Assembly (NCBI RefSeq): GCF_028583425.1
Contig: NC_072791.1
Coordinates: forward strand, 17,131,868-17,195,867
DNA: 64,000 nucleotides
Origin: Eublepharis macularius
Lineage: Eukaryota; Chordata; Lepidosauria; Squamata; Eublepharidae
Direction of reading: 5' to 3'
Under the pieces are notes generated by a model, which had not been told where the DNA came from, did no database searches, and saw only the letters and a list, made by a program, of their open reading frames with translations. Of this stretch, positions 1 to 61,362 are shown one piece after another. Each line of letters starts with the position of its first letter. The first letter of the stretch is position 1. A program made the translations under genes and the position numbers.

Positions 1-475
1 CCTTCATCTGAAAATCTTGTTGGTCTAGGAATCCCATTCACCTGGTGGGAGCAGTGGGATCCCCTGCTTTCACCCTCTGCTGCTTGCCTCCACTTAACTG
101 GCCCGGTGGGGGAGGAAGGCAAAGAATGGGCCTTCCAGGTGTGCTCCTAAGGCGGCGGCGCACCAGTGTGGGAGCACTCCTACGCTTTGCCACAGGCCAA
201 TGAAGCCCAATGATGCCTGCTGTGAAGCAGGCATGCACCCTGAGGCTGCATGATAATGTCACCGGAAGTGATGTCACCGGAAGTGCTGTCACCGGAAGTG
301 ACGTCACTGTGTGGCTGTGGGAATCATAACTAAACAACACAAGAAGAAGGTAAGAGCCAGGTCTCCCCCCTCCCACCAGAAGGGTAAGGGGACCGGGCAA
401 CCTGATGTTGGTCCCTAAGGTGCCCCTGGACTCAAATCCTGATGTTCTACTGCAGGCCAACATGGCTGTCTACCT
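1..475. repeat. Palindromic-family remnant interrupted by an unclassified insertion
   Basis: The left edge (CTGAAAATCTTGTTGGTCT) and 410-475 (CCCTAAGGTGCCCCTGGACT, then CTGCAGGCCAACATGGCTGT) belong to one diverged family copy. A segment of about 390 bp (about 27-406) lies between near-identical GTTGGTC words. The insert includes a 15-bp tandem repeat (256-305) and is otherwise unrecognised. Confidence 0.5.
256..305 (+). repeat. 15-bp tandem repeat
   Basis: ATGTCACCGGAAGTG is repeated three times with single changes, and a fourth partial copy starts at 301. Similar GATGTCACTTCC words recur near 1070, 4430 and 32510-32640, which suggests a dispersed family. Confidence 0.75.
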
Positions 476-6045: not shown

Positions 6046-6498
6046 TAAGATTTTAAAAAGGTAGAAGGGTGGAAAGCACATCTCCCAGGCCGTGGTGTAA
6101 AGGTTTGAACTCACTGGCTTCCTCGGTGAGATGCCAGCAGGCTATAAGCTTAACTTTTATTTCTGCAGTGTAGAGTTACACGGCATGTTCTCCGGGAAGC
6201 AGTGTCCAGTCCATCTCTATTCTTTGTTCTTTCACTGAAACACAGAAACCATCCAAAGTTCATCCAAAATTGTCCCAAATGCAAAGGCACACAGGCACCC
6301 GTCCCATCCTCCCAAATCCCTGAAAGCGGCACTAGAACGTAAGTCTATGTACCGTGACTTCATCTGTAGAAGCTCCAGAACGTCAGATCACGTACAGTTG
6401 CACTCTATGGAGCACTGTTTTCTGTCTGCGCTGTCTGTTTTCTGTCTGCGCTGATTGTATTTGTTTATTTTATTATTTACTTACAGTAAATAATTATA

Positions 6499-6648
6499 GA
6501 TCCAGAGGAGTTAGCTGTGTTAGTCTGTAGTAGCAAAATAGTAAAGAGTCCAGTAGGACCTTTAAGACTAACCAACTTTTAGCTTTGGCTCTCGAAAGCT
6601 TATGCTACAATAAAGTTGGTTAGCCTTAAAGGTGCTACCGGACTCTTT
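6499..6648. mobile_element. Palindromic PLE-related element, 14-bp target duplication
   Basis: AGTAAATAATTATA occurs on both sides (6485-6498 and 6649-6662). The element has arms GAGTCCAGTAGGACCTTTAAG and CTTAAAGGTGCTACCGGACTC. The ribozyme centre is reduced to CTCTCGAAAGCTTATGC (GAAA and AGCU kept, CUGAUGA lost). Confidence 0.85.
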
Positions 6649-6769
6649 AGTAAATAATTATAAACTATGTATTTATAGTCCGCCTTTCTCACTGAAACTC
6701 AAGGGGCAACCACACAGTGTAACACAATGGTTTAACTGTTGACCAGTTGCTTCGGGTCTGCGCCACTAC

Positions 6770-7197: not shown

Positions 7198-7430
7198 TTT
7201 CAGGTGGGTAGCCGTGTTGGTCTGCAGGAGAAGATTCGGGCCCAGTAGCACCTCAGAGATCAACTAGGTGCCATTAAAGTTGCCAGCCTCTAGGACAGCA
7301 AGATTCAGGTCCAGCAGAACCTTAAAGACCAACTAGATTTCCAGGGTGTGAGCGAGAGTCAAAGCTCCCTTTACCCTGGAAATCTAGTTGTTCTCTAAAG
7401 TGCTACTGGGCCCAAATCTTGCTCTTCTCA
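7198..7430. mobile_element. Palindromic-family element, diverged
   Basis: Family words GTAGCCGTGTTGGTCTGCAG, CCCAGTAGCACCTCAGAGA and TAAAGTGCTACTGGGCCC are present in inverted arrangement. The centre (GTGTGAGCGAGAGTCAAAGC) no longer has an intact hammerhead core. Confidence 0.65.
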
Positions 7431-7752
7431 TCACAGAATCTCAGGGACCCTCAGAACACTCTTCTGGAATATATAATGGTGGCCTCTGTTGTTGTTAACA
7501 CCACTTACAGGGTTCAAGGTCATGGCTAGACGACACGCTCACCAAGTTCCTGGCTGATGATGTCATGTCTGGCAAGAGCGCTCACCATGAGTGTAGATCA
7601 TCGCAAATGGTAAATTGCATTGTGTGGTATACAGTACTTAAAAAAACCTTTTCCCCGGAGCTCTGAAGAACCTATCCCATCAGTCATTGAAAGCTCCCCA
7701 AAGGAAGTTGCAGAAGCCAGTCCTTTGAAGGGAGAACCATAGGCACAGATGG

Positions 7753-10344: not shown

Positions 10345-10938
10345 TGCTTGCGTGTGTGTTATATGCTGTCAAGTTGCCTCCGACCTATGGCAACCCTATG
10401 AATGAAAGACCTCCAAAACACCCTGTCATTAACAGACTTGCTCAGATCCTGCAAACTGGAGGACGTGGCTTCTTTGATTGATTCAAGCCATCTCTTTTTA
10501 GGTCTTCCTCTTTTCCTACTGCCTTCCACTTTCCCTAGCATTATTGACTTTTCCAGAGAATCTTGTCTTCTCCTGATGTGACCAAAGTACGATAGCCTCA
10601 GTTTTGTCATTTTAGCTTCTAGGCAAAATTCACGCTTGATTTGATCTAATACCCACTTATTTGTCTTTTTGGCTGTCCACGGTATCCGCAAAACTCTCCT
10701 CCAGCACCACATTTCAAATGAATCCATTTTCTTCCTGTCAGCTTTCTTCACTGCCCAACTTTCACATCCAGACATCGTAATGGGGAATACCGTCGTTTGG
10801 ATTATCTTGATCTTGGTCTCCAGAGAGACATCTTTATCTTTAAGGATCTTCTCTAGCTCCCTCACAGCTGCTCTTCCAAGGCTCAATCTTCTTCTGATTT
10901 CTTCATTGCAGTCTCCCTTTTGGATGATGATTGAGCCA
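10345..10938 (-). pseudogene. RTE/BovB-like LINE ORF2 C-terminus, left arm
   Basis: An open frame of about 175 codons (10359-10886) shows the C-terminal signature of RTE-clade ORF2: ESWAVKKADRKKMDSFE, MWCWRRVLRIPWTAKKTN, LSYFGHIRRRQDSLEKSIML, GKVEGSRKRGRPKKRWLES and the end WRSFIHRVAIGRRQLDSI. The catalytic reverse-transcriptase core lies upstream and is absent. BovB-like RTE LINEs are abundant in squamates, which fits the other repeats. Confidence 0.82.
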
Positions 10939-10983
10939 TAGTTTTGGGGTAGAAACTATGTCATTGTAATCCACAGAACTCAC

Positions 10984-11824: not shown

Positions 11825-12400
11825 TGGCTCAATCATCAACCAAAAGGGAGACTACAATGAAGAAAAAGATGGAGTCTTAGAAGAACAGCTGTGAGGCAGC
11901 TAGAGAAGATCCTAAAGATAAAGATGTCTCTCTGGGAACCAAGATCAAGATAATCCAAACTATGGTATTCCCCATTACTATGTGTGGCTGTGAAAGTTGG
12001 ACGGTGAAGAAAGCTGACAGGAAGAAAATGGATTCATTTGAAATGTGGTGCACTGGAGGAGAGTTTTGCGGATACCATGGACAGCCAAAAAGACAAATAA
12101 GTGGGTATTAGATCAAATCAAGCGTGAATTTTCCCTAGAAGCTAAAATGACAAAACTGAGGCTATCGTACTTTGGTCACATCAGGAGAAGACAAGATTCT
12201 CTGGAAAAGTCAATAATGCTAGGGAAAGTAGAAGGCAGTAGGAAAAGAGGAAGACCTAAAACGAGATGGCTTGAATCAATCAAAGAAGCCACGTCCTCCA
12301 GTTTGCAGGGTCTGAGCAAGTCTGTTAATGAGAGGATGTTTTGGAGGTCTTTCATTCATAGGGTTGCCATAGGTCGGAGGCGACTTGACAGCATATAACA
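11825..12400 (+). pseudogene. RTE/BovB-like LINE ORF2 C-terminus, right arm
   Basis: This is the inverted partner of the minus-strand copy at 10.35-10.94 kb. It opens with stops and a deletion near 11870-12040, then reads in frame from about 12045 through RIPWTAKKTNKWVLDQIKRE and GKVEGSRKRGRPKTRWLES to the same RRLDSI end. The frame loss is local, so it is a decayed duplicate. Confidence 0.82.
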
Positions 12401-13502: not shown

Positions 13503-14399
13503 GCCACCGTCTGGCAAAGATATTTTTTAAAAAAGAAACTACAACTTAGGCCAGCATCTGATCAATTAAGCCCCAAACACTCGAGAAAGAGTTAATTTCC
13601 CATTTTCTTCCTCGTGAAATGAACAAGCTGGTATAAAGGGAAAAGCAGGAACCTTCTGTTTAAAATTATAGCTGTAAGCAAAAGGTCCATTGAGCAGACC
13701 ATATTAGGCAAAGTGCAATCTTTTCTTGTAAAAAGTCTGCTGAAAAGTAGCTCTGCTGTCCCCCCTGTTGTAATCTGTCCACTTGTTTCCATTAGCCAAA
13801 GATATACAAGAGGCAATGTCTGAGATGCGGAGCTTCTCGTTTGGAAGAGAGGCCCACGGGCTGTTAATCTGTAAGGTGGCACCAGAGAGTGCCCCGAGCA
13901 GTGAAACACCCAATGGCGGGGAATATGTTTATTTCATTCCTATCACAAGTAAAACTTGCATGCAATTTTTCAGCTGTAGCTCCTGATTTCTCAGAGCAGC
14001 GGTTTAAAAACCACGTATAAAACCTTTGGAGTTTTTAAAAAAAAGATCAGACAAAGCCAGCTGAGAGAATCATCCTCTGTGTTGACGGTAAAAGACAATT
14101 CAGTGATAATCTCCTTGGCGATGCCTTCCAAAATAAAACACTGTCAATGAGAAGTATGGAGAGAAGGAGGGATGCAGGGAGGGTGCATGCCGCAGTGGCG
14201 GAGCACCTGCTTTGCCTGCAGAAGTTACCAAGTGACGTCCTTGGAATATTCCTGTACCAGGAGGGCAGGTAGCAGGCTCAGGGGACGACCCTGGAGACAC
14301 CCCTCCATCAATCAGAGGAGATGGTACGGGGCGAGAGGAACCAGCTTGAGCAGTCAGCATCCTTTGCTCTTTGGACCAGCTGGAGTTCCTATGGTAGGA

Positions 14400-14613
14400 G
14401 TTAGCCCACCATGTTAGTCTGTAGTCGCAAAATAGTAAAGAGTCCAGTAGCACCTTTCAGACTAACCAACTTTTTTGTAGCATAAGCTTTTGAGAACCAC
14501 AGCTCTCTTCGTCAGATGCATCTGATGAAAAGAGCTGTGGTTCTCGAAAGCTTATGCTACAAAAAAGTTGGTTAGTCTGAAAGGTGCTACTGGACTCTTT
14601 ACTATTCTTTTTG
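14400..14613. mobile_element. Near-perfect palindromic element with hammerhead centre
   Basis: The two arms (AGTCCAGTAGCACCTTTCAG on the left, its complement on the right) meet at GATGCATC near 14516-14523. The palindrome is about 180 bp long. Each arm carries a hammerhead-like motif, so a transcript from either strand would contain one. The right motif is intact (14518-14557). I see no clear target duplication. Confidence 0.8.
14518..14557 (+). ncRNA. Short hammerhead ribozyme motif in a palindromic element
   Basis: Stem I is GCAU (14518-14521) pairing with AUGC (14554-14557). The core is CUGAUGA (14522-14528) and GAAA (14546-14549). Stem III is the self-complementary AGCU (14549-14552), and the predicted cut follows U14553. 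Stem II is weak in this copy: GAG (14532-14534) can pair with CTC (14543-14545). The opposite-strand arm (14478-14520) has the same layout but AAAA in place of GAAA, so that one is probably dead. Confidence 0.7.
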
Positions 14614-14746
14614 TTGTAAATGATAGGATGCAGCTTATCCTCAATGGAGGGGCAATACAGGAGAGAGAAGACTCTTCCAAAGCTCTGAGAGACATAGACC
14701 GTTTAGGCCTTTTCAAGTCAGAAATCAGTAGCTTGAATTGGAGTGG

Positions 14747-14967
14747 AAAAGAGCAAGAGTCCAGTAGCACCTATAAGACTTAACAAAATTTGTGGGCCTT
14801 CATGAGTCACAGCTCACTTCTTCAGCAAGAGTATAATACTGGGATCTGAAGAAGTGAGCTGTGAGTCATGAAAGCTCATAGCTCACTACAGATGTTGTTA
14901 GTCTTGTAGGTGTTACTGGACTCTTGTTCTTTTCCTCGGCTACAGACAGACTAACACGGCTGCCCGT
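14747..14967. mobile_element. Palindromic PLE-related element with 15-bp target duplication
   Basis: CTTGAATTGGAGTGG (14732-14746) and CTTGAATTGGTGTGG (14968-14982) flank it. Inside are AGTCCAGTAGCACCTATAAG and, inverted, GTAGGTGTTACTGGACTC, then CTAACACGGCTGCCCGT. The plus-strand hammerhead motif is mostly intact (14846-14877). Confidence 0.82.
14846..14877 (+). ncRNA. Partly decayed hammerhead motif
   Basis: CUGAAGA (14846-14852), a stem II built on GTGA and TCAT, GAAA (14870-14873) and AGCU (14873-14876) followed by C14877 are all present. Stem I is reduced to about two pairs. The minus-strand arm of the same element keeps CUGAAGA but has GAAG in place of GAAA. Confidence 0.5.
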
Positions 14968-15197
14968 CTTGAATTGGTGTGGGTTTTGATCGGGATATTG
15001 CTGAAGTGGCTGCATGAGGTTTGGGAGGAAAGGAGCATTCATGATCGCATCTCAAGCCCTGTTTGGTCAATATGAGTTTGGTGCTCCAACCTTCCATAAC
15101 AGAAGAGAGCATTCCTCGTAATCGTCTCACTATGTGGAGTTGCCATTTTGCATGAATAGGACAATGACTTATTATCCAGCTTGGGTATGTGCAAATG

Positions 15198-15415
15198 TGT
15201 GTGGTGGAGAACAACCTCAAGTCATAGCTGACTTATGGCAACCCCTGGTAGGGTTTTCATGGCAAGAGACTAACAGAGGTGGTGTGCCATTGCCTGCCTC
15301 TGCAACCCTGGTCCTTGCTGGAGGTCTCCCATCCAAGTACTAACCAAGGCTGACCTTGTTTAGCTTCTGAGATCTGACGAGATCAAGCTCACCTGGGCTA
15401 TCCAAGTTAGGGTAT
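15198..15415 (-). mobile_element. 5S rRNA-derived SINE
   Basis: The right part (GGTCTCCCATCCAAGTACTA, then TTTAGCTTCTGAGATCTGAC) is the complement of 5S rRNA around its internal promoter. The left part (GCTGACTTATGGCAACCCCT, GTTTTCATGGCAAGAGACTA) is the SINE body. It is therefore a minus-strand SINE with a 5S-like head. Confidence 0.85.
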
Positions 15416-16061
15416 ACGTAAATGTGTACCCTCCAGATTTTCAATCATGCATGCCAAAGCTACGCACGTTGCCCTATTCTCTTAAAATGAGGACTGTGCA
15501 TTTTGAGTGGATCAAGCATGATGCAATTGTGACGACCGAAAAGAAGTCCAGTTCCAGGCGCTTGACGGTTCTGAGGCAGAGGGGAGGCCTTTTACCAATA
15601 AAAAGAGACAAGAGTCTGCGTCATAGACTTAGCTAGCGTTTCCCATGCCCTCTCAACAAGGACCCTGCCATGCATCATCCCGAGAAGGTATCTCACTCAT
15701 GCCTTCAGGCTGAAGAATTGGTGCCAAACCACGTCTGCCTTCTTTTCGGGAACATCTGTGCCAGGTGGGAGAAACACGGTCTGTAATGAGAAAGTCACCG
15801 TGTGGTCGGAAGACACGTCAAGCAGCAACTTTCAGGAAGATCAACAGCAATGGCTTTTAAAGGCCGTTTCGACAAATGCATGAAGGGTATGTTCAGCCAT
15901 GGGAAAATGGAGCCTCTGTGGTCAGAGGCGGCAAACTTGCAAATCCCCCTAGGGGGAAGGGGGAATGGGTATTTCCAAGTACACTGCTCTCTAGTCCCTT
16001 TCTGGAAGCCTTTCAGAGGTAGCTGTGGTTACATCATGGAAAACAGGATCCTGGACTGCAC

Positions 16062-21284: not shown

Positions 21285-21485
21285 GTTATGGATGGTGCCC
21301 ATAAGTCATAGCTGACTTACGGGTTTCATGGCAAGAGACTACCAGAGGTGGTTTGCCGTTGCCTGCCTCTGCAACTCTGGTCTTCGTTGGAGGTCTCCCA
21401 TCCAATTACTAACCAAGGCCAACCCTGCATAGCTTCTGAGATCAGACGAGATCAGGCTCTCCTGGGCTATCCAGGTCAGGGCAAG
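21285..21485 (-). mobile_element. 5S rRNA-derived SINE
   Basis: Same arrangement as the copy at 15.2 kb: GTCATAGCTGACTTACGG, GGTCTCCCATCCAATTACTA and GAGATCAGACGAGATCAGGC. A short deletion removes part of the body after GACTTAC. Confidence 0.83.
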
Positions 21486-21758
21486 GAATTCTGTAGGGAG
21501 GGGGGAAACCCACAAGCCCTTGCTCTGTTCATTTCTCCCATACTCCCTAAAGGAAACAGCTTAAGCACTGCAAATACAAAGGTTATCTAGCCTCAGATAA
21601 TTATTTGGCAGCAAGGCATTCGAGGCTCCCATTATTGACAGATTAAACACTGTCTCCCTTTATAGCTGATAGATCCAGAGGAGTTAGCCGTGTTAGCCTG
21701 CAGTTGCAAAATAATAAAGAGTCCAGTAGCACCTTTAAGACTAACCAACTTTATGGTA

Positions 21759-21798
21759 GCATAAGCTTTCGAGAACCACAGCTCTTTTCATCAGATGC
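21759..21798 (-). ncRNA. Short hammerhead ribozyme motif, minus-strand arm
   Basis: Read on the minus strand, this 40-nt motif has GCAU, CUGAUGA (21794-21788), a stem II region, GAAA (21770-21767), AGCU (21767-21764), U at 21763 and the closing AUGC (21762-21759). All core bases are intact. It faces a second motif on the plus strand about 30 bp away, within one palindromic element. Confidence 0.68.
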
Positions 21799-21826
21799 AT
21801 CTGATGAAGAGAGCTGTAGCTCAGAT

Positions 21827-21866
21827 GCATCTGACGAAAAAAGCTGTGGCTCTCGAAAGCTTATGC
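21827..21866 (+). ncRNA. Short hammerhead ribozyme motif, plus-strand arm
   Basis: This has GCAU (21827-21830), CUGACGA (21831-21837), GAAA (21855-21858), AGCU (21858-21861), U21862 and AUGC (21863-21866). Stem II has lost some pairs through G-to-A changes; only the inner AGC/GCU pairs and one outer A-U remain. The core is intact but folding may be weak. Confidence 0.6.
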
Positions 21867-22139
21867 AATAATAAAGTTGGTTAGTCTTAAAGGTGCTACT
21901 GGACTCTTTATAGCTGAGCTACTTATGATGTTATTGGATCCCCTGGATTTTTTAAAAACATTAACAAAATAGCTTGTGGGTGCGGATCCGGGCTGTAGTG
22001 TGACGGCATGGCCCTTAACCATTTTCACTCTCATGCAGAGGCACACAGTTTTCCCACCAGAATTTGGTTCCCTGAATTGTTCTTAGCCCAAGAAGCAAAA
22101 ATAAAATGGAGACATGCAATACAGGCCTCTTCACTAGCT

Positions 22140-25240: not shown

Positions 25241-25316
25241 TGTGAGCCGCACTTTCTCAATGAGGAAATTAATCATCTAAAAAGCAAAAGACAGTAGAGA
25301 CCCCCTCACCTCTGCA

Positions 25317-25640
25317 GGAGTATACCGTATACCCTGCAGCTGTGGACAAGTTTACATCGGGACCACAAAGCGTAGCATCCAGACAAGAATAAAAGAACAT
25401 GAAAGACACTGCAGACTTGGACAACCTGAAAAATCAGCAGTGGCTGAACATATCCTAACTCAAACAGGGCACAGTATCTTATTCCAGTATCTTATTCCAG
25501 GACACCAAAATACTGGACAACACTTCCAACTACTTTGTCAGACTGCACAGGGAAGCCATTGAAATTCACAAGCATAAGCAAAACTTCAACAGGAAAGAAG
25601 AAACCTTAAGAATGAACAGAGCATGGTTTCCAGTTCTGAA
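25317..25640 (+). pseudogene. PLE GIY-YIG endonuclease remnant
   Basis: In PLEs this domain nicks target DNA so the reverse transcriptase can prime. The reading frame from 25317 shows GVYRIPCSC, GQVYIGTT and KEHERHCRLGQPEKSAVAEH, including the paired cysteines seen in PLE endonucleases. A 13-bp direct duplication (CAGTATCTTATTC twice, 25472-25497) shifts the frame. The protein then resumes in another frame, with recognisable tail sequence up to MNRAWFPVLK (about 25640). Confidence 0.8.
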
Positions 25641-25889
25641 AAACACCAGGCTAACAAAACATTCTATCCCCGACAATAGCCCTGCAGAGAAGATTAGCAC
25701 ATCAAGTACCAATCCATATGCAAAAGAACCTCCTCAGGATACAGTGAAGCCTCCCGCCATTAGCATTCCACACCCTGGGAAACTCGTACAGGATGACTCA
25801 GCTCAACCCCACCCCTCCTGAGCAGATACAAATGACCTACATCTTTTCCACACTGTGACACTGAGAGATCTCTGTCTTTTGGTGCTACA

Positions 25890-25930
25890 CCTCTGAAGAT
25901 GCCAGCCACAGCTGCTGGCGAAACGTCAGG
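25890..25930 (+). ncRNA. Short hammerhead ribozyme motif in PLE terminal repeat
   Basis: The core reads CUGAAGA (25893-25899, fits CUGANGA) and GAAA (25920-25923). Stem II is GCCAGC (25901-25906) with GCTGGC (25914-25919), a perfect 6-bp helix with a 7-nt loop. One extra base (25900) lies between A9 and stem II. Stem I pairs CCU (25890-25892) with AGG (25928-25930). Stem III is reduced to ACGU (25923-25926), which is self-complementary; the predicted cut is after C25927. Short-stem-III hammerheads that act as dimers are known from PLEs, and this copy sits directly after a PLE endonuclease region. Confidence 0.8.
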
Positions 25931-26215
25931 AACTACAATGCCAAGACCACGGCAATACATCCCGGAAAACCCACAACAGCCATCGTTCTCCGGCCGTGAA
26001 AGCCTTCGACAATACATTGCCTCTTCCCCCTCGGCAAAGGGATATAAACCCCAAACGAGGTGTGCAGCCAAATCTCCCCCCCCCCCACTTAACAGATGCC
26101 AATCTCCCCCCCCCCGGGCAATTCTGCCTCAAAACCTCTTCCTGATACTGATACCTCCAGCTAATTGTGAACATCTCATTTCCTGCAGTTTCAATTGGAT
26201 TGCCATAACGACAAT

Positions 26216-26475: not shown

Positions 26476-26489
26476 CTCATGTTGGTATG

Positions 26490-26640
26490 TAGTAGAAGAG
26501 CAAGATTTGAGTCCAGTAGCACCTTACAGACCAATAAGATTATACAGGGCAGAAGGAGTCTTAATTTTCTAAAGCTTTTATAGCCCTGGAAATCTTGTTG
26601 GTCTTTAAGATGCTGCTGGACTCAGTTCTTGCTGTTTCAC
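26490..26640. mobile_element. Diverged palindromic-family element
   Basis: GAGTCCAGTAGCACCTTACAG and GATGCTGCTGGACTC face each other. The centre is decayed (TCTAAAGCTTTTATAGCCC) with no ribozyme core. Confidence 0.6.
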
Positions 26641-27699
26641 TTCCTGCAACGTACCCTTGGCAAGTCAAGAGAGAAAAAGATTTCATCATCAAAAGTCCAC
26701 TTCCTGATGTCTGCCCGCACTGTCTCCCCACTGCGAGGAACACTGGCAGTGCTGCAGGCCAGCGAGACACTTCAAGCAGCCAGCCAAGAGGCTGCTTCAG
26801 CAGCAGATTTCGACGAACCCGCCGTGTCTGTTTGTGCATGTCAGAATAGCAGATAATGGGAGGAAGGGCTTTTCGGGCTCAGCTCCTCCTGTCTCCTTTA
26901 AACAAAACAGCAGCTGGCTACTCCCGGAAAAGCAGTGAGTTGCTGGAATGTTTCCATAAAGCATGCCGCTAGAAAAATGCAACAAGACACAGTGCCCTGA
27001 CTAGGTAAATGGCTGTGTATATTTACCTCTAGCGCACCAAAGTTAAGAAAAGCTGAAATTCTACTGGTGAACAACTGTTAAAGATACAGGAAGCCTGGGC
27101 TATGTTGCATTCAGTCACCTTAGCGCTGACGAGCGAGCTTTACCCCTCAGACTACTTTCCAATTATTCTAGAAACTAGGCCACCTCCATGGGACAGCTGA
27201 TCGTGGAGGGGGAAAGAGGAGGTGTTCCAAGCAAAGAGACCCAGTTTAGAAGAAGCTCTCCCTCCCCACTCCCCATCAACTAAGACTCAGCCAGATGGCA
27301 GGGCTGGGTGTTCATTAAAGGCAGCCCCTGGGTTTACATAAAGAGATTGTTCTCAATTAAATGAGTATTCCGCCCCCCGCCTCGGAATACTGATTGGTAG
27401 TTTAAAGGGAATTTTGTTTGAATGGCCTTGGATTGCCTGCATATTTTGAGTGTCTTAAACCAAAGGGAGGCCACCGTTTTTGGCCCAAGTCCCAAGAAAA
27501 ATGCAACGTCAACCTGCGAAGATGCTGGAGTGCTCTGAAATAAATGTGTGTGTGTGTGTACTTAGCTAGAGACATTTGGAGCAAGACACGCACTCACAGC
27601 ACTGCCAGCATGTCAGAGATTTGTCTTGGACTCGGCTGGTGGCTGCAGGTCTGGGAGGAGATGATAGGCATAAGCTATACCTACTGCCTTCTGCCACTC

Positions 27700-34935: not shown

Positions 34936-35593
34936 TTTCTAATCTTCAGCCCCACTCGGAGCTCCAAGACTACTCAGGGACTTGAAACCCAATGCTCTGT
35001 GCTTGACACTGGCCTCATTGGAGGTGCATTGCCCAAAGCAAGGAGGTGCATTAAAATCTGGCAAAAACCTGTCACTAAATCATCTCCACCCACCCACCCC
35101 CCGAAACAAACCCTCGAATGCCAGTGGAATTCCAACCGCGCCAACTATAACGGGGGTCCCTGCTGAGCCATGCTAGCCCAGCTGCTCCTTCAGATCACTG
35201 GCAGTTTTGGAAAGACAGAGATCCTGTTCTGCATCTCAGAGGGACTCCTCTGCATGCCAAATGCATATATTGTACGTGCTCTGGGAAAAGAAAGAAATAA
35301 AGATGATAGATGAAGGCCTCCGGGCGTAACGACAGGCCTTGAGAAAGGCAGAGTCTCCCTGCAGCGTGCTGTCTGAGGGAGATGCAGGGTGATATTCCGA
35401 GATCGGAAATGAGACCGGAAGGACTTCGCCCCACCAACAACTGCAGCAGTACAGGTAACCGACATACTGTGTGCAATGAAAGTGACTGATTGTAGGAACC
35501 GAAGTGTCCTTTGAGTGACAGACCAGGAACAATTCCAGGGAACATCAAAGCAAGGCATGGAAACCTAAGAGAGGATACTATAGAATCCTAGTT

Positions 35594-35770
35594 CCAGAGG
35601 AGTCAGCTTTGTTAGTCTATAGTTGCAAAATAGTAAAGAGTCCAGTAGCACCTTTAAGACTAACCAACTTTATTGTAGCATAAGCTTCTGAGAATCACAG
35701 CTCTGAGCTGTGGTTCTTGGAAACATGCTACAATAAAGTTGGTTAGTCTTAAAGGTGTTACTGGACTCTT
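35594..35770. mobile_element. Palindromic-family element with collapsed centre
   Basis: Arms AGTCCAGTAGCACCTTTAAG and CTTAAAGGTGTTACTGGACT are well kept. The centre has lost CUGAUGA and one stem II strand, leaving CACAGCTCTGAGCTGTGGTT as a plain hairpin. Confidence 0.75.
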
Positions 35771-35773
35771 CAA

Positions 35774-35848
35774 TATAGAATTGGGTTGGAAGGGACCTCT
35801 AGGGTCAGCTAGTCCAATCCCCTGTACAATGAAGGAAATTCACAAATA
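35774..35848 (-). mobile_element. CR1 LINE 3' terminus, short
   Basis: ATAGAATTGGGTTGGAAGGG and CAGCTAGTCCAATCCCCTGT match the reversed CR1 3' end. It leads into a C-rich and CA microsatellite. Confidence 0.75.
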
Positions 35849-39151: not shown

Positions 39152-39368
39152 TTGTGGTGGAGAGTGCCGTCAAGTTATAGCTGACTTATGGCGACCCCTG
39201 GTGGGGTTTTCATGGCAAGAGACTAACAGAGGTGGTTTGCCATTGCCTTCTTCTGCAGCCCTGATCTTTGTTGGAGCTCTCCCATCCAATTACTAACCAA
39301 GGCCGACCCTGCTTAGCTTCTGAGGTATGATGAGATCAGGCTCACCTGGGCTAGCCAGGTCCAGGCGA
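39152..39368 (-). mobile_element. 5S rRNA-derived SINE
   Basis: A complete copy: GTGGTGGAGAGTGCCGTCAA at the body end and CCCTGCTTAGCTTCTGAGGT in the 5S-like head. Confidence 0.85.
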
Positions 39369-40458: not shown

Positions 40459-40611
40459 AGTTTTTATCTCCAGCATCTTGCGTGTCAAGGTGAACTGCCT
40501 CAGAATATGGAGGCTCCACCAAGCTACTGACAGGCCTATCCTCCACAAATTTCTCTCCTACATTTTTCGAAGTCTCTGAAACTGATGGGCATTGTCACAT
40601 TTTGTACCAGT

Positions 40612-40927
40612 AGAAAAGAGCAAGAGTCCAGTAGCACCTATAAGACTAACAAAATTTGTGGTCGGGTATGAGCTTTTCTGAGTCACAGCTCACTTATTGA
40701 GATGCAGCTAGAATGTGAGTCCGTCTGTCCTTCTATCTTAAGACACCTTAAGTACCAATCTTAACTACCAATCTTAAGATAGAAGGACAGATGGACTCAC
40801 ATTCTAGCTGCATCTCAAGGAGTGAGCTGTGACTCACGAAAGCTCATACCTTACCGCAAAGGTGCTACTGGACTCTTGCTCTTTTCTACTGCTACAGACA
40901 TACTAACATGGCTGCCCATCTTGAACG
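40612..40927. mobile_element. Long palindromic element with disabled hammerhead centres
   Basis: TTTTGTACCAGT (40600-40611) and TTTTGTTCCAGT (40928-40939) flank this 316-bp palindrome. The inner arms extend well beyond the usual centre (GATAGAAGGACAGATGGACT and complement). Both arms read CUCAA where the catalytic CUGAA should be, so the G5 position is lost in both, while GAAA and AGCU remain on the plus strand. Confidence 0.82.
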
Positions 40928-40974
40928 TTTTGTTCCAGTTCACTGCTTGTGAACTATGAGCTCTCTGAAGTCAT

Positions 40975-44236: not shown

Positions 44237-44343
44237 GAGTGGATAGCTATGTTAATCTATAGTAGAAAGACAAAATTTGAATCCAGTAGCACTTTAAAGA
44301 CTAACACAATATTTTACAGGGTATAAGCTTTCATGAGTCAAAG
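44237..44343. mobile_element. Palindromic-family left arm
   Basis: It carries AATCCAGTAGCACTTTAAAG and GTATAAGCTTTCATGAGTCA, the complement of a degenerate hammerhead centre. The 122-bp PLE end is inserted into its edge, so this copy is older than that insertion. Confidence 0.65.
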
Positions 44344-44355
44344 CTCATTTTGCAG

Positions 44356-44477
44356 ATGTATTGTCGAAGGCTTTCACGGCCGGAGAACGATGGTTGTTGT
44401 GGGTTTTCCGGGCTGTATTGCCGTGGTCTTGCTGTGCCAAGACCACGGCAATACAGCCCGGAAAACCCACAACAACC
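44356..44477. mobile_element. 122-bp palindromic PLE end with 12-bp target duplication
   Basis: CTCATTTTGCAG is repeated exactly at 44344-44355 and 44478-44489. The insert starts ATGTATTGTCGAAGGC, the complement of the PLE terminus at 26014. It then folds back: GTTGTTGTGGGTTTTCCGGG and onward is matched in inverted order up to 44477. It has no coding sequence and no hammerhead core. Confidence 0.88.
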
Positions 44478-45336
44478 CTCATTTTGCAGCTTTGGGGGTC
44501 ACAAAAAGTTGATTGAGAAGAATGAAGTAGAGATCTGTAATCTTGTCGCCAGGAATTGATGGATCCAACCCACGAGGAAGAAAGTTTTTAGCCTCGTTCT
44601 AGGATCTTTGATGCACTAGTCTTCTTAATGCGAATAATTACATTTTGTGTATTATAGGGAAATGTTCAATCACTTGCTACAGACTGAACTGAGGCCTGCC
44701 AATTGTGTCCACCAAGATTCTATATTCTGTATATATGAGCAGTTATTGTTATTGTGATCTGCACAGATTCTGCACACTTACACCATATTCAGAGTACCAA
44801 AATATTTGAAATAAGTTTGCAAGCTTGTGTGCGCTGCTTGCAAACCTGCTTGCTAACAAGGATGTATGGACATTCCCTATTTCATACCACAAGTTGCTGT
44901 AGACAGCCTTTTTGTTTTCTCCGTTGTCGATCCAGGTATTCCTGATTTGTTTCTTCCATGACATTTTCATGCCCGATTTACACCATTTGTACTCAACAGA
45001 TGCAAAAACAGGTGGCATTTCTAACGGCAGCAATTCTACACAGTTTTGTTAGTATGGCTGGTACAGTTTTGTCCCAAGTGGAACCAACCCATTTCAAAAA
45101 TTGTGGCCACAAGATTCGGTTGCTTCCTGCTTGCCAAAGACGGACATGGATGGCTACCCTCCTACCTTTTTACATCCTTTCTGAATTTCTAATCCAAATC
45201 AAGGACAAACAGCACTTTGTCAGAGAACATGATTTTGATACGAGGAGGAGACAAAGAGAGGAAATTGGAAAGTTAGTTAGGGAGCGAAGAAGCTTTGTCG
45301 TACTGTAGTCCAATGTACCCATTTCTCTGAAAGGCT

Positions 45337-47934: not shown

Positions 47935-48090
47935 TCTCTGAGTCTAGGGGCACCTTAGAGACCAACAAGACTTTCCCAGTGCAGGCTTCCCAGAGTCAGG
48001 GGTCCCTCCTTTAGACACCACACCCTGAAAATCTTGTTGGTCTCTAAGGTGCCACTGGACTGAAATCCTGCTGTTCTACTGCAGACCAAC
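47935..48090. mobile_element. Diverged palindromic-family element
   Basis: GAGTCTAGGGGCACCTTAGAG and CTAAGGTGCCACTGGACTG face each other, followed by GTTCTACTGCAGACCAACTA. No ribozyme core remains. Confidence 0.6.
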
Positions 48091-48304
48091 TAGGGTTGCA
48101 AGGTCCAGGTTGGGAAATAAGTGGAGATTTGCGGGGTAGAGACTAGAGAGGGCGGGGTTTGGGGAGGGGCCTCAGAACGGTATAATGCCATACAGTCCAC
48201 CCTCCAAAGCAGCCGTTTTCTCCAGGGGAACTGATCTCTATGGCCTGGAGATCAGTTGTAATTCTGGGTGATCTCCAGCCACCACCTGGAGGCTGGCAAC
48301 CCTA
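48091..48304 (+). repeat. GTTGCCAAC-family repeat, complete
   Basis: It runs from TAGGGTTGCAAGGTCCAGGT to CTGGAGGCTGGCAACCCTA. The inner part reads GGTATAATGCCATACAGTCC and TCCAGGGGAACTGATCTCTA. Confidence 0.72.
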
Positions 48305-48984: not shown

Positions 48985-49175
48985 TTCAGGTGTGTAGCTG
49001 TGTTGCAACAGAAGAGGAAGAGCTGAGGCCAGTAGCTCCTTAAAGACCAATGAGATTTCCCAGGGTATGAGCTTTCAAGAGTCAAACTACCTTTGTCAGA
49101 CACAATCCCATTTCTATTTGTAGCTAACCAAAGGAGCTTGGCTCTCAAATGCTTATACCCTGGAAAATCTCATTT
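48985..49175. mobile_element. Diverged palindromic-family element
   Basis: The left arm contains GGTATGAGCTTTCAAGAGTC. Its complement keeps GAAA and AGCU, but the catalytic segment reads CUGACAA in place of CUGANGA. The right arm is weakly recognisable. Confidence 0.6.
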
Positions 49176-49310
49176 TGGGCTTCTGGGCTCAAAGGTTGCC
49201 TAAAGAGACTCAGACTGCTAAGAGGTAAAAAGCGACCCACAGTCTGGATTTTGAGAAACGGGATCCTAAGTGAAATACAGCAGCATGTCCCCAAGGTTGC
49301 ATTTACATGA

Positions 49311-49520: not shown

Positions 49521-49964
49521 CAGAGGGCTGCTGTTGATGTTTTAATCGTCGCCAAGAACAGCGCCTGGCTGTACTGGTTTCTGGTCATATAACGAGGAAT
49601 CACATGCATTTCTCAGTGAAATAAGTCTGGTAGTCAAATTTACCTTGTTCAACACAAGCGGACTGTGAGCTCACGAGGGACGTGTTTGGATTTCACTGAG
49701 CAACTCGCAGGGCAGCCAAACAAGTTTGCAGCTGCTTATAGTGGACTCAGCAGCTGATCAGTGGATGAGCTGGGAGACAGGTTCTCCCCCCCCCCCCCCC
49801 CGCAAAAAAACCTACATGGTGAAGTTGCAAAGGAAGAGGAAAAAGAACTGGGGGGAAGAAAGAGCACTACCCAGCTGGGCCATGACGTACACAATGCATT
49901 TAAGCGCACACTTCTTTCCCCCGCTCTCAATTGTGCAACGATTTTAATGTCTCCATTGCAAAAG

Positions 49965-50155
49965 ATCAAGATGGGTATCCGTGTTAGTCTGTCTGCAGCA
50001 GTAGAAAGGAGCAAGAGTCCAGTAGCACCTATGAGATGAACAAAATTTGTGGTAGAGTATGAGCTTTTGTGAGACACGGCTCACTTCTTCAGAAAGCTCA
50101 TACCCTACCACAATTTTTGTTCCTGTTATCGGCGCTACTGGACTCTTGCTCTTTC
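49965..50155. mobile_element. Palindromic PLE-related element with 12-bp target duplication
   Basis: CCATTGCAAAAG (49953-49964) and CCACTGCAAAAG (50156-50167) flank it. The minus-strand arm has CUGAAGA and AGCU but AAAA in place of GAAA. The right arm is shortened. Confidence 0.75.
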
Positions 50156-50769
50156 CCACTGCAAAAGGGAGACAAGAAAGATCTCCTTTCTCTCTTTTTT
50201 CTCTGCAGCTCAAATCAACAATTTTAGGTGGTGAAAAGGGAAATCAGGTGGGCTTTTGCTCGTCACACTAAATCTGCAGCATCTCTAGTTTCAAGGCTGA
50301 TTAAAAGAACCCAACCAGTTTGCTGGTATAGGCCACAATTTCCCCACCAGGAGATCAGAAGTTCACTCTCAGCTGATCTCTCATCAGATGAGAATCGCTT
50401 CAGATGGCTGCAAGTTGCCTGTCTCTCTGAATATGCACACAGGTTTCAAACAGCCCATCCATTAACAGGCTGCCTGATCACCACCAATGAATGGCAGGTG
50501 AGCCCAACTGGCAGATGTTCAAGCATCCCCTAGGCTCCCAGGGGCTCCTCCTATGTCCTCAGGCTGAGGTGTCCCACATTACTTACTACCTGATCCTTCT
50601 AACGAGAGATGCTGAGAACTGAACTTGGTACCTTCTGCATGCAAAGCAGATGCTTTGCTGCTGAGCCACAGCCCTACCCATTACTGGAATAGCACTGAAT
50701 GAAGGTTTTTTCCTCTCTCCTGCCTCTAAAGGATGGGCTGGGCTGTGTGCAGTGTGGAAAAAGGAGTTG

Positions 50770-50905
50770 CTAGTTTCAGGTCGGTATCACTGTTGAACTG
50801 TAGTAGAAGAGCAAGATTTGGGTCCAGTGGCATCTTACACACCATCTAGATTTCCAGGGGATGAGCTTCCGAGAGTCAGAGCGCCCTTTGTCAGTATCTT
50901 GCTCA
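50770..50905. mobile_element. Diverged palindromic-family fragment
   Basis: It carries GGTCCAGTGGCATCTTACAC and GGGGATGAGCTTCCGAGAGTC, matching the left arm of the family only. Confidence 0.55.
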
Positions 50906-52344
50906 ACAGCTGCTAGTTTTACACCCCTACATATCTCCGCTACATCTTTGGCTGCTCACGAAAAGCAAGTCCCACTGGACTAAATGAAACGTCTTCTGCG
51001 TACGCCTGCCTGTTTTTAATCTCGGATGTTCCAACACTGGAGTATTTTGTTGGCCTAATAATAGCAACCGGCGGCACAATGTGAATCAAGCATCCTACGA
51101 CTTGTCCAAAATGGAGCATAGTCCGCAGGCCCACACCAGGCTGCAAAACCATCCCAGCTCTGAGAGCATCTCTGACTGCAGTCTTGACTCGCTAGATGTT
51201 TGCTGGGAGTCTGCCAATAGATTGCTTCCTATACAGTGCGTTATTTCACATGGCAAGGTTTGGCTCCCCAGAAAACCACAGCGTAGGTGTTTCCCCCAAA
51301 GTGACAACTGCATTAACTCTTATAGCCCTGTGCAATTTTTCCCCAATAAAAGATACAGAGATTTTTGTGGGTTCCACTGTTTCTCTTAGGATAATGGGCC
51401 AATGCAGAGAAAAATACATCTCTGGTCAGTTTCACTATCATTTAGAATGGTAGACTTCCACCATTGGCAGGCTTTTGGAACACAAACATTATTTCTCACT
51501 TATCAGTTCTTGAGTTGGAGGGGGACTGTATCACTGCAGTACTTTCCTCCTTGGGACTGCAGAGGTTGCAATACTTTGCATGCTTACTTAGAAGTAAGCC
51601 TGAACGGAACTTAATCTGAGTAAATACACGTAAGTTTTGGACGCATAAACAAAAAGCAAAGATGTGCGAACCAGAATATCTAAAACAGAGTCTGGGACCA
51701 AATTGTTTTGTTATTCATTTGAAATATTGTTGTTAATGTCTTTAAACCACTCCTCAGACCTTGATCCAACTGGATAGTAAGTGCAAAATGAAACCTCTTT
51801 ATTTCCACCTGGATTAAGTTCCGATTAATTAGGCTGCAACATTTCAACTGGAGGAGAATTTGCAAACAGGGCTTGAAGGTTTTCTGCTGACCTGCTTTCC
51901 TTCTAGGATTCTAGCTTTTAAAGACACTTCTTTGGGAGTAAGCCTTCTCAAATACAGTGCGGCTCTCCCCTACCCAAGAAATTATATTTTATTCAAACAG
52001 GTTAGCTGTTAGGAAAAAAAAATATTGCTTTTGTTTGATAGAATGCTGAATGCCATGAAAAGTTTCACCTGCCCATTTCCACGTATTAGACCTCTATTAA
52101 AGGGACAGAACGTTTTTCTTCCAGGCCAACACTAGCTGCATGTGGTCATTTTGCTGCTTTGAAGCATAAACCGTCGTTTCAAGAGCAGAACCGTTGCTTT
52201 GAGGTTTGGATAGGGCTGCAGACTGGACCTGAGAATAAGCTCTCCTGAAATCAGCATACATTCATAGGAGCACATTACAAGTCAGTAGGATTTTTATTGA
52301 CCATGCCACAGTGGAGTGGCATGGACTCCATCACATTACATCCA
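50906..52344. other. Unrecognised, repeat-poor DNA upstream of JAG2
   Basis: About 1.4 kb without recognised repeats, ending 1.6 kb before the JAG2 start codon. It is a candidate place for promoter-proximal regulatory elements, on position only. Confidence 0.45.
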
Positions 52345-52597: not shown

Positions 52598-53366
52598 CTT
52601 TGGTAGTTTTATTTTTAAGACTGATGGCAGATCAATCACTCCGCCCCTCCCCCCAAATCTCCAGGAATTTCTCAACCTGGAGCTGCAAATTGACCCCAAG
52701 TCTTTGATCGTTTTGCTTTTGAGACTGACGAAGAACCCCTCTGCGCTCCTAACTCCAAATCCCCAGGCATTTCCCAGCCTGCAGTTGGCAACCTGAATCC
52801 ATGTCTTTACTAGCTTTGCTTTTAAAGTTGATGAAGGTTTTAGGGGGGAGGCCATGTTGGTCTGCAGTAGAACAGCAGGATTTGAGTCCAGGGGCACCAC
52901 AGAGACCATCAAGACTTCCAAGGTGTAAGGTTTCCAGAGGTCAGAGTCCCTTTCTTCAGACATCCATGTCTTGGGTAGTTTTGCTTTTAAAACTGATGAA
53001 AGATCACTCCACCCAAACCCCCATCTCCAGGAATTTCCCAACCTGGAGCTGGCACCCTGAACCCATCTTTGGTAGTTTTGCTTTTAAGGTTGATTAAGGA
53101 TCACTCCATCTCCACCCCAAACTCCAGAAATTTCCCACCCTGGCGCTGGCAATCTGAACCCACATCTCTGGTTATTTTCCTTTTTAACACTGAAGAAGAA
53201 TCATCCCTCCTTCCCCTCCACTCCGAATCTCCAGGAATTTCCCACCCCGGAGCTGGCAACCAAACACCACGCCTCTAGCCATTTTGCTTTTGACATCGAA
53301 GAATCCCTCCTCCCCCCTCCCCTCCAAACCTCCAGGAATCCCCCACCCTGGAGTTGGCATCTCGGG
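52598..53366 (+). repeat. Minisatellite of ~100-bp units abutting the JAG2 promoter
   Basis: Seven related units start at about 52598, 52702, 52805, 52970, 53067, 53166 and 53273, a spacing of 97-107 bp apart from one interrupted unit. Each begins CTTTGGTAGTTTTGCTTTTAA or a variant, then a GATCACTCC-like stretch, then CCAAATCTCCAGGAATTTCC and a CTGGAGCTGGCAACC tail. The tail resembles the nearby GTTGCCAAC repeat family, so the array probably grew from one copy. The third unit is broken by a short insertion at about 52835-52965. Confidence 0.85.
52835..52965 (+). mobile_element. Decayed palindromic-family fragment inserted in the minisatellite
   Basis: This segment carries the family words GGCCATGTTGGTCTGCAGTA, GATTTGAGTCCAGGGGCACC and GAGACCATCAAGACTTCC. 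They match the left arm of the hammerhead-bearing palindromic elements elsewhere in the window. It interrupts the third minisatellite unit. No intact ribozyme core is present. Confidence 0.65.
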
Positions 53367-54771: not shown

Positions 54772-55092
54772 GTCTCGGAGGCTTCGGGCTATTTCGAGGT
54801 GCAGATTAACTCGGTGAAGAATGTCAACGGCGAATTGTTGAATGGGGAATGTTGCGACGGGGTGAAAAACCCGCGGAACTTGGACTGTACCCGGGACGAG
54901 TGCGATACTTACGTGAAAGTCTGCTTAAAGGAATACCAGTCCAAAATCACGCCTACGGGCGCCTGCAACTACGGCTCCGGATCTACTCCCGTGCTCGGTG
55001 GAAATACTTTTTATCTGACCAATCGCAATTTGCATCAGGGCAAAAACCACGACGGGGGCAGGATTGTCATCAATTTCCAGTTTGCCTGGCCG
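54772..55092 (+). CDS. JAG2: JAG2 exon 2 (MNNL domain)
   Basis: This exon encodes residues 28-134, the N-terminal Notch-ligand (MNNL, C2-like) domain, which together with the DSL domain contacts Notch. The acceptor is a T-rich tract ending in TTTTTAG and the donor is CCG|GTAGGT; both junctions are phase 0. Visible landmarks are GYFEVQI (33-39), [14 protein letters not shown] with a Cys54-Cys55 pair, [18 protein letters not shown] (66-83), Cys92, the [10 protein letters not shown] stretch (100-109) and FQFAWP (129-134). JAG2 is preferred over JAG1 because of GYFE, CCDG, DTYVKV, TPTG, VLGGN.FYL and FQFAWP, where JAG1 has GQFE, CCGG, DTYFKV, a different loop and FSFAWP. An insertion around residues 110-122 (relative to JAG1) is also JAG2-like. 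The next exon should continue with RS(F/Y)TL.VEAWD; I did not find it before the window end, so the gene is incomplete here. Confidence 0.92.
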
Positions 55093-55685
55093 GTAGGTCC
55101 CGCTTCGGTTCCATTTCTCTTGGCTCCCCCGGGAAACAGCTTAATATAAGCCAACATGTTCGGAGTTGGTTTGGTTTGCATTCGTTCATTCTTCTACACC
55201 CACCCGGGAATATTGTTGAGCGCAGAGAGGCTCTTTCTTTATTGGTACTTGGAAGCTTTGCATCTCGAAAGGGCTTTGCCTCCGCCCTTCTTGGGTTTAA
55301 GAGCCCAGGGGGTCCGCTTATTGCTCCCCTTTTGCGGAAGCGGAGAGAGGGAAGGTCGAGATCATTTGGGGTCGAGGAAAGATTTGCAGATTTGGGCAAA
55401 GCTCTAGCGCGATTTGTAGATCTGTGCCTGATTCTGCAGGCATGAGAACTCGGTTGCAAAGCTGGAGAGGGGCGGTTCATCACTTGCTGAGCGATCGTGT
55501 TAAAAATGTTCAAGCGTACAGTGGTGAGGGGGAAAGAATCTGCCCCACAAAGGGAAAAGGGCACATCCGGAGGCATCTCCTCCCCGGGGCGTGCCTGCGA
55601 TCAAAGCACATTTGCAACCGGGGATTCGGAGGCCCCTTAGCGACTGCGAGATAAATGCAGCCTTGATGGCGCTTTAAATTTTACT

Positions 55686-56999: not shown

Positions 57000-57090
57000 T
57001 ATCTGAAGAAAGGAGCTTTGAGTCTTAAAAGCTTATATCCTGGAAATTTTGTGGGTCTCTAAGGGGCCACTGGGCTCAAATCCAGCTGAC
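57000..57090 (+). mobile_element. Diverged palindromic-family right arm in JAG2 intron 2
   Basis: It reads CTGAAGAAAGGAGCTTTGAG then AAAAGCTTATATCCTGG and GGGCCACTGGGCTCAAATCC. The CUGAAGA segment survives but GAAA has become AAAA. Confidence 0.6.
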
Positions 57091-57285
57091 CTCCATTCAT
57101 GAGTTGCAGCCAACTCATGGCTACCCCAGCTATGGGGTATTCAAGGCAAGGTGGTTTGGCATTGCCTGCCTCTACATGGAGAACCCTGATCTTCCTTGGT
57201 GATCTCTCCTCCAAGCGCCAACTAGTTAACTAGCCAGCCCTACTTAGCTTCAGAGCACTGATGAAGCTGGACTATTTGGGCTGCT
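57085..57285 (-). mobile_element. 5S rRNA-derived SINE, diverged
   Basis: TTGCAGCCAACTCATGGCTA, GTGGTTTGGCATTGCCTGCC and CCCTACTTAGCTTCAGAGCA show the same order with many changes. Confidence 0.65.
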
Positions 57286-61151: not shown

Positions 61152-61362
61152 GTGGAGAGTGCCCTCAAGCCATAGTTGACGTATGGTGACCTCTGGTGGG
61201 GTTTTCATGGCAAGAGACTATCAGAGGTGGTTTGCCATTGCCTGCCTCTGCAACCCTGGTCTTCATTGGAGGTCTCCCATCCAGTTACTAACCAGGGCTA
61301 GCCCTGCTTAGCTTCTGAGATCTGATGAGATCAGGCTCACCTGGGCTATCCAGGTCAGGGAT
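61152..61362 (-). mobile_element. 5S rRNA-derived SINE in JAG2 intron 2
   Basis: A well-kept copy: GGTGGAGAGTGCCCTCAAGC, GGTCTCCCATCCAGTTACTA and GAGATCTGATGAGATCAGGC. It is antisense to JAG2. Confidence 0.85.

Follow-up and report, generated by a model that had tools for sequence, protein, structure and literature searches.

The window (the whole 64-kb stretch of DNA analyzed here) contains many copies of a short repeat, the AGTCC repeat, together with the remains of a Penelope-like element (PLE). The repeat had been described as common in the window, and so it is: AGTCCAGTAGCACC, with at most 2 mismatches allowed, matches 22 times against 0.4 expected. A search with three queries derived from copies in the window produced 30 matches after merging; 28 arms were kept, two weak matches (E values of 0.056 and 0.24) were dropped, and the arms fall into subfamilies A (8 arms), B (6 arms), and C (14 arms). 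They form 10 simple inverted loci, one complex locus, and five single-arm loci, and the inverted loci are arranged head to head, i.e., with the hammerhead ends facing inward and the AGTCC ends facing outward. These copies, the two hammerheads of the palindrome under study, and the two PLE features are as follows (inverted, complex, and palindromic features have no single strand).

403-474, plus strand: truncated arm, subfamily C, with tail
6499-6648: inverted copy, subfamily A, junction within the hammerhead; perfect 14-bp target duplication at 6485-6498 and 6649-6662
7203-7431: complex copy, two minus-strand arms (the outer one without a hammerhead) followed by one plus-strand arm
14398-14608: inverted copy, subfamily A, tailed on its minus arm but not on its plus arm; target duplication not found
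14480-14519, minus strand: hammerhead in the other arm of the palindrome at 14398-14608, with six pairs in stem II and an A in place of G12
14518-14557, plus strand: minimal type I hammerhead of subfamily A with an intact core and an A.C clash at 10.1-11.1
14747-14967: inverted copy, subfamily B, plus arm with tail; target duplication at 14732-14746 and 14968-14982 (1 mismatch)
21670-21905: inverted copy, subfamily A, hammerheads at 21759-21798 (minus) and 21827-21866 (plus) and a partial third core at 21801 (plus); target duplication at 21658-21669 and 21906-21917
25281-26017, plus strand: 3' part of a PLE, with the remnant of a GIY-YIG frame (25281-25562) followed by the hammerhead-bearing terminal repeat and a tail
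26478-26644: inverted copy, subfamily C, minus-arm tail (P = 0.025); target duplication not found
35588-35773: inverted copy, subfamily A, junction in stem II; 8-bp target duplication at 35579-35586 and 35774-35781
40612-40924: inverted copy, subfamily B, arms reaching ~50 nt upstream of the hammerhead, plus-arm tail; target duplication at 40597-40611 and 40925-40939 (2 mismatches)
44239-44351, minus strand: single arm, subfamily C, interrupted by the palindromic PLE copy at 44356
44356-44477: palindrome left by the GIY-YIG PLE family, arms head to head, flanked by a perfect 12-bp target duplication (44344-44355 and 44478-44489)
47935-48096: inverted copy, subfamily C, plus-arm tail; target duplication not found
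48989-49200: inverted copy, subfamily C, weak minus-arm tail (P = 0.076); target duplication not found
49965-50155: inverted copy, subfamily B, minus-arm tail; target duplication at 49953-49964 and 50156-50167 (1 mismatch)
50779-50907, minus strand: single arm, subfamily C, with tail, starting just upstream of the hammerhead; 12-bp flanking repeat (1 mismatch)
52844-52962, minus strand: single arm, subfamily C, with tail
57002-57126, plus strand: single arm, subfamily C, without a recognizable tail

Within the inverted copy at 21670-21905, two direct hammerhead cores lie 30 nt apart (21797-21866), the first of them truncated in stem II, which looks like the trace of a template switch during reverse transcription where the hammerhead begins.

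The window also holds features of other kinds. Four 5S rRNA-like stretches on the minus strand (15295-15423, 61247-61353, 21361-21480, and 39248-39368; two above the Rfam gathering score and two below it) may be the heads of a 5S-derived SINE family, and a tRNA-like match at 50604-50675 (minus strand, above the gathering score) is either a tRNA gene or a tRNA-derived SINE. An exon-like frame at 54772-55149 (plus strand) encodes a Notch-ligand N-terminal domain (Pfam MNNL; E = 1.5e-38) and resembles JAG1; a 97-bp tandem repeat in two copies (52969-53162) lies upstream of it. Long frames at 10359-10955 (minus strand; no Pfam match) and 12042-12398 (plus strand) resemble the C-terminal part of an RTE (BovB-like) retrotransposon.

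The hammerhead at 14518-14557 reads GCATCTGATGAAAAGAGCTGTGGTTCTCGAAAGCTTATGC, with the layout GCAT-CTGATGA-A-AAGAGCTGTGGTTCTC-GAA-AGCT-T-ATGC. C3 to A9 are CTGATGA, followed by one additional A and then by stem II; the 3' half consists of G12A13A14, A15.1-GC-U16.1 (AGCT), T as H17, and ATGC as the 3' strand of stem I. The invariant core of the minimal type I class (CUGANGA..GAA with A15.1-U16.1 and H17) is thus present, and stem III comprises four self-complementary bases without a loop. At pair 10.1-11.1, which closes stem II, an A stands opposite a C. The original prediction gave the motif as GCAU-CUGAUGA-stem II-GAAA-AGCU-U-AUGC; the motif exists, but one A had been counted twice, and the letters are GAA-AGCT.

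Could such a motif arise by accident? A full descriptor (4-bp stem I, CTGANGA, at least 4 of 6 stem II pairs, GAAA, U16.1, and H17), which was composed after the motif had been seen, matches three times in the 64-kb window (14522 plus, 21794 minus, and 21831 plus); all three sites lie in the AGTCC repeat and have a self-complementary stem III and, belonging to one repeat family, they are not independent. Across 300 dinucleotide shuffles the descriptor matched twice, never with a self-complementary stem III. This rarity, together with the covariation of stems I and II described below, upholds the proposal that an abundant palindromic repeat encodes a hammerhead. With a stem I of 3 bp, the PLE motif at 25893 escapes the full descriptor. 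The looser pattern CTGATGA..GAAA is not significant in the window (four matches versus 1.8 expected, a count that 14 of 100 shuffles reach), and an exact-core pattern (core, AGCT, and 3' strand of stem I fixed) matches 47 times in viral and microbial collections (3 in IMG/VR and 44 in GTDB). Under a contiguous stem II rule, which the 14518 copy itself would fail, none of the 47 has both stems; under the stem rule of the full descriptor, one passes (L039, a Fictibacillus contig). These matches look like chance. Tail and anchor patterns picked out 67 loci in IMG/VR, and a three-query scan of 114 loci found no significant relative (best E value of 0.23). That a loose core is expected about 1.8 times per window, and that one exact-core match elsewhere passes the stem rule, is what a chance origin of the hammerhead match would have in its favor; set against the scarcity of the full descriptor in shuffles and stems that covary across diverged subfamilies, we regard a chance match as extremely unlikely.

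Rfam covariance models, run over 14400-14640, returned no hammerhead family at an E value of ≤10, and they returned none at the ACGT motif of the PLE either, so the Rfam library does not recognize such minimal hammerheads here. The Rfam microRNA matches across the repeat all fall under their gathering scores and reflect the hairpin; they were rejected.

The original prediction proposed that the stems be examined for covariation in all genomic copies; here the examination covered the 15 complete arms of the 64-kb window (14 distinct; 13 of the 28 arms were dropped), from which all counts of copies in this work come. Per-column core conservation across all 28 arms was discarded because truncated arms add nonhomologous sequence. 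Among the complete arms, the hammerhead structure pairs in 75.8% of cells, compared with 69.5% when shuffled, and the covariation score is 0.297, compared with 0.178 when shuffled and with no more than 0.181 in controls with a shifted 3' side; none of 500 shuffles reaches either observed value, and kinship among arms inflates the covariation scores. The number of pairs changed on both sides (six, reached by 67 of 500 shuffles) and the number of pair types (reached by 455 of 500) are not exceptional. Stem I offers an example, as a C-G pair in subfamily A is U-A in most C arms and in one B arm (two B arms are mismatched at the same pair), and stem II shows several changes among subfamilies. Covariation was thus found in stems I and II, but stem III scarcely varies, with AGCT in 12 arms and GGCC, AGCC, and ACCT in one arm each.

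This distribution bears on the suggestion that compensatory change in stem III reveals selection on dimer pairing. The PLE at 25893 does have ACGT where the AGTCC repeat has AGCT, as had been noted. However, a single one of the three variant arms keeps self-complementarity (GGCC), and two lose it (AGCC and ACCT). Moreover, with A15.1 and U16.1 fixed, 4 of the 16 possible inner dinucleotides are self-complementary, so that AGCU versus ACGU amounts to a single comparison at odds of roughly 1 in 4. The stem III argument for selection is therefore weak. The two families do share the additional base after A9, as predicted; it is A in all 15 complete AGTCC arms (registered by hand) and T in the PLE.

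Core retention in the copies is not supported, since the core is not clearly slower to change than stem II: departures from the subfamily majority number 1 of 36 in the core versus 3 of 64 in stem II for subfamily A, 6 of 45 versus 6 of 80 for B, and 9 of 52 versus 19 of 96 for C, all of them small numbers. The nine invariant core bases (C3 to A9 with N7 free and G12 to A14) are intact in 6 of the 15 complete arms, and several of the losses, as we read them, affect CpG-type sites, as in the change of CTGACGA to CTGACAA or of CTCGAAA to CTCAAAA. Three of the 15 arms combine an intact core, a 4-bp stem I, and a self-complementary stem III; in all three of these otherwise best arms, pair 10.1-11.1 is broken by A.C.

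Folding bears on whether such copies act at all. The transcript of 14398-14608 is predicted to form a near-perfect hairpin (-152.3 kcal/mol; z = -24.8) in which the motif is buried, while the isolated hammerhead of the 14518 copy folds at -6.1 kcal/mol, and of six hammerhead sequences folded singly, two (14518 and a typed A consensus) gave a hammerhead-like fold. Based on the A-C clash and the near-perfect hairpin, the 14518 copy is probably inactive and unlikely to cleave. In the palindromic copies, every hammerhead pairs with its own antisense and its sequence is decaying; these hammerheads therefore probably do nothing. The three arms with all core bases, a 4-bp stem I, and a self-complementary stem III would speak for a functional or host-adopted hammerhead on either strand of the palindromic copies, but the A.C pair that all three carry, the burial of the motif in the hairpin, and core departures that are not clearly rarer than those in stem II (in B and C) make this very unlikely. 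Co-folding of two hammerheads with ViennaRNA gave extended antisense duplexes rather than a hammerhead dimer; such modeling neither supports nor refutes dimer cleavage.

The anatomy of the copies is that of PLE ends. PLE insertions have been described as inverted, head-to-head pseudo-LTRs with palindromes at the junction, 8- to 10-bp target-site duplications, and, optionally, a 31-bp tail carried by one pseudo-LTR of the inverted pair (PMC3846280). The AGTCC copies likewise have head-to-head inverted repeats with a variable junction. Two A loci have it at ATGCAT immediately beyond the core, locus 35639 (35588-35773) has it within stem II, and locus 40625 (40612-40924) has it ~50 nt upstream. 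The optional one-end tail of a PLE terminal repeat is clear in 9 of the 10 inverted loci, where a ~40-nt tail extends beyond exactly one GGACTC end (P ≤ 0.025 per end, uncorrected, versus 0.31 to 0.99 at the other end), and weak in the tenth (49026; P = 0.076 versus 0.25), although there the profile alignment nevertheless runs through the tail. Target-site duplications of variable length (8 to 15 bp) adjoin the ends in 6 of the 10 inverted loci, with none detectable in the other 4; a duplication score of at least 8 is reached by 6 of 10 true flank pairs and by 0 of 90 mismatched pairs, the element ends in this comparison having been set after the duplications were first seen. A 16-bp flank repeat at 52885 was rejected as a target duplication because its right copy is overlapped by the 97-bp tandem repeat. 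Long inverted repeats and target duplications would also be displayed by a palindromic DNA transposon (MITE) whose inverted repeats resemble a hammerhead by accident. Such an element, already disfavored, is highly improbable given that the duplications vary in length from 8 to 15 bp, that the tail is present at one end and absent at the other, that the junction shifts from ~50 nt upstream of the hammerhead to within it, that single-arm copies occur, and that hammerhead stems I and II covary.

The GIY-YIG PLE in the same window, which belongs to the ACGT family, provides a yardstick. Its reading frame matches Pfam at an E value of 8.4e-5, and 67 relatives were recovered at E ≤ 0.001, including proteins of the lizard Phrynocephalus forsythii, with identities reaching 85%; together with the Notch-ligand exon, the lizard relatives suggest that the host is a squamate. 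The hammerhead of this PLE, at 25893, reads CTGAAGA-T-..-GAA-ACGT-C. From C3 to the tailed end, this element measures 125 nt and, to the untailed end, 86 nt. These distances match those of the AGTCC arms, which are 118 to 128 nt to the tailed end (arms of 21720, 14758, 50016, and 50859; 111 nt in 40625, which has an internal deletion) and 75 to 90 nt to the untailed end (three arms, of 21720, 14758, and 40625). In the palindrome of the same PLE family at 44356-44477, the tail is on the left and matches at 38 of 38 letters. Comparison of the right end with the tail gives a score of 0.5 (P = 0.014), although inspection by eye places the target duplication immediately after that end. This palindrome sits inside an AGTCC arm of subfamily C (44239-44351), so the AGTCC copy is older.

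The motif, the covariation of stems I and II, the one-sided tail, the duplications, and the geometry were all observed directly, and on these grounds we consider it very probable that the AGTCC repeat (subfamilies A, B, and C) is a family of PLE ends. A copy is built from one or several terminal repeats truncated on their 5' side, usually a pair fused head to head. Within an arm, the hammerhead occupies the inner (5') end, and the alternative 3' ends are found ~75 to 90 and 118 to 128 nt downstream of the core. The original prediction spoke of two separate families; taken to mean a PLE and a non-PLE repeat, this is not supported, and with the repeat showing PLE pseudo-LTR anatomy, common descent within PLEs is the simpler reading. 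A different origin would be a non-autonomous SINE- or retrozyme-like element of ~120 nt, with the hammerhead at its 5' edge, which arose outside the PLEs and was mobilized by them in trans. The copies are indeed short, several begin near the hammerhead, and mobilization of hammerhead retrozymes by PLEs has been proposed in reviews (PMC7761336); in addition, no frame of the AGTCC family was recognized in the window, where no dedicated search was made. Nonetheless, the copy at 40625 reaches ~50 nt upstream of the hammerhead, the ends and geometry closely match PLE pseudo-LTRs, and the hammerhead, lacking a loop on stem III, is of the minimal PLE kind, and we judge such an element unlikely. We conclude that the AGTCC repeat represents either a family of PLEs or an element closely dependent on such a family, a conclusion that does not distinguish between descent from an autonomous PLE and parasitism.

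How might the copies have formed? In the PLE of Anolis, insertion involves cleavage of both strands and extension, and two reverse transcription start sites bound the tail (PMC11167929). By analogy, we propose that a PLE enzyme would cut both target strands and reverse transcribe from both, with one cDNA beginning at the distal site and thus containing the tail and the other beginning at the proximal site and lacking it. The cDNAs would tend to truncate near the structured hammerhead and would then be joined head to head; self-priming, as proposed for rotifer PLEs, is an alternative route of joining. Identity between the arms of one locus (0.89 to 1.0 in A and 0.76 to 0.83 in B) is not clearly above that between loci (means of 0.91 in A and 0.80 in B, with one B pair skipped as too short) and does not separate self-priming from the joining of two cDNAs. 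In an active tandem parent, the hammerhead could cleave as a dimer via its self-complementary AGCU stem III. We further speculate that stem III might be a device for both template pairing and cleavage, such that, within a dimer of the PLE enzyme, two PLE RNAs kiss via AGCU (or ACGU), each priming one cut strand (from the distal or the proximal start), and the cDNAs stop and are joined at the paired hammerheads. This would explain the single tail and the head-to-head palindrome with a hammerhead at or near its center, but we think it improbable. In Anolis, hammerhead mutants left insertion in vitro unchanged, the hammerhead cleaved only when protein was present, and no RNA-seq reads started or ended at the presumptive cut site (PMC11167929); cleavage therefore appears unneeded for insertion, which weighs against this proposal as regards cleavage.

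An abundant repeat that would normally be masked can now be read as a set of PLE insertion products, with the hammerhead, the choice of tail, and the position of the junction seen together. Provided that the window is typical of the host genome, AGTCC copies should be numerous there, and they would allow one to test directly if tail choice is obligately asymmetric, if junctions gather at the hammerhead, and if young source subfamilies keep a self-complementary stem III.

With regard to known systems, a literature search for the sequence of the AGTCC repeat returned nothing, and among the titles listed by further searches, the family lists of Cervera and De la Pena 2014 and Lunse et al. 2017 being set apart, none dealt with a palindromic hammerhead repeat in reptiles. 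Metazoan non-LTR retrozymes are short, non-autonomous, and equipped with type I hammerheads, and those of vertebrates act as dimers (PMC7229834). Retrozymes are nonetheless tandem direct repeats with canonical hammerheads, whereas AGTCC copies are mostly inverted and their hammerheads minimal; a single pair of direct arms occurs (7203-7374), one of them without a hammerhead. The small dimeric hammerheads of PLEs (Lunse, Weinberg, and Breaker 2017) are also comparable: as summarized in PMC6466107, they have a short palindromic stem III, cleave as dimers, and need both the palindromic stem and a tandem arrangement in the genome. Unlike them, AGTCC copies are mostly inverted, direct cores being limited to the pair at 21801 and 21831 (30 nt apart, the first truncated).

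Among the PLEs themselves, the Penelope elements of Adineta vaga resemble the AGTCC copies in having head-to-head inverted terminal repeats, junction palindromes, an optional one-sided tail of 31 bp, and 8- to 10-bp target-site duplications, and an arrangement of two direct repeats and one inverted repeat recalls the AGTCC locus at 7203-7431 (PMC3846280). In the rotifer, apart from some solo pseudo-LTRs, the repeats flank reading frames or captured sequence, whereas the AGTCC copies consist of repeats only; the word "hammerhead" is absent from the text of PMC3846280. PAc, a PLE of the Poseidon clade from Anolis carolinensis, has a hammerhead at the junction of terminal repeat and open reading frame and two 3' ends that bound the tail (PMC11167929). 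By eye, the window PLE at 25281-26017 fits the PAc layout, with a start codon at the beginning of stem II and the cut site 26 bp downstream. The AGTCC repeat differs from PAc in its AGCU in place of ACGU, its linker and tail, the lack of a recognized frame over the hammerhead, and its abundance as short palindromes; what it has in common with the window PLE is the one additional base behind A9, comparable distances, and a stem III that is self-complementary. More broadly, the pseudo-LTRs of PLEs carry minimal hammerheads, possibly acting as dimers, and thousands of dispersed minimal type I hammerheads occur across many animal genomes (PMC7761336). The AGTCC hammerhead is thus a further example within the PLEs, a group already known to carry such ribozymes.
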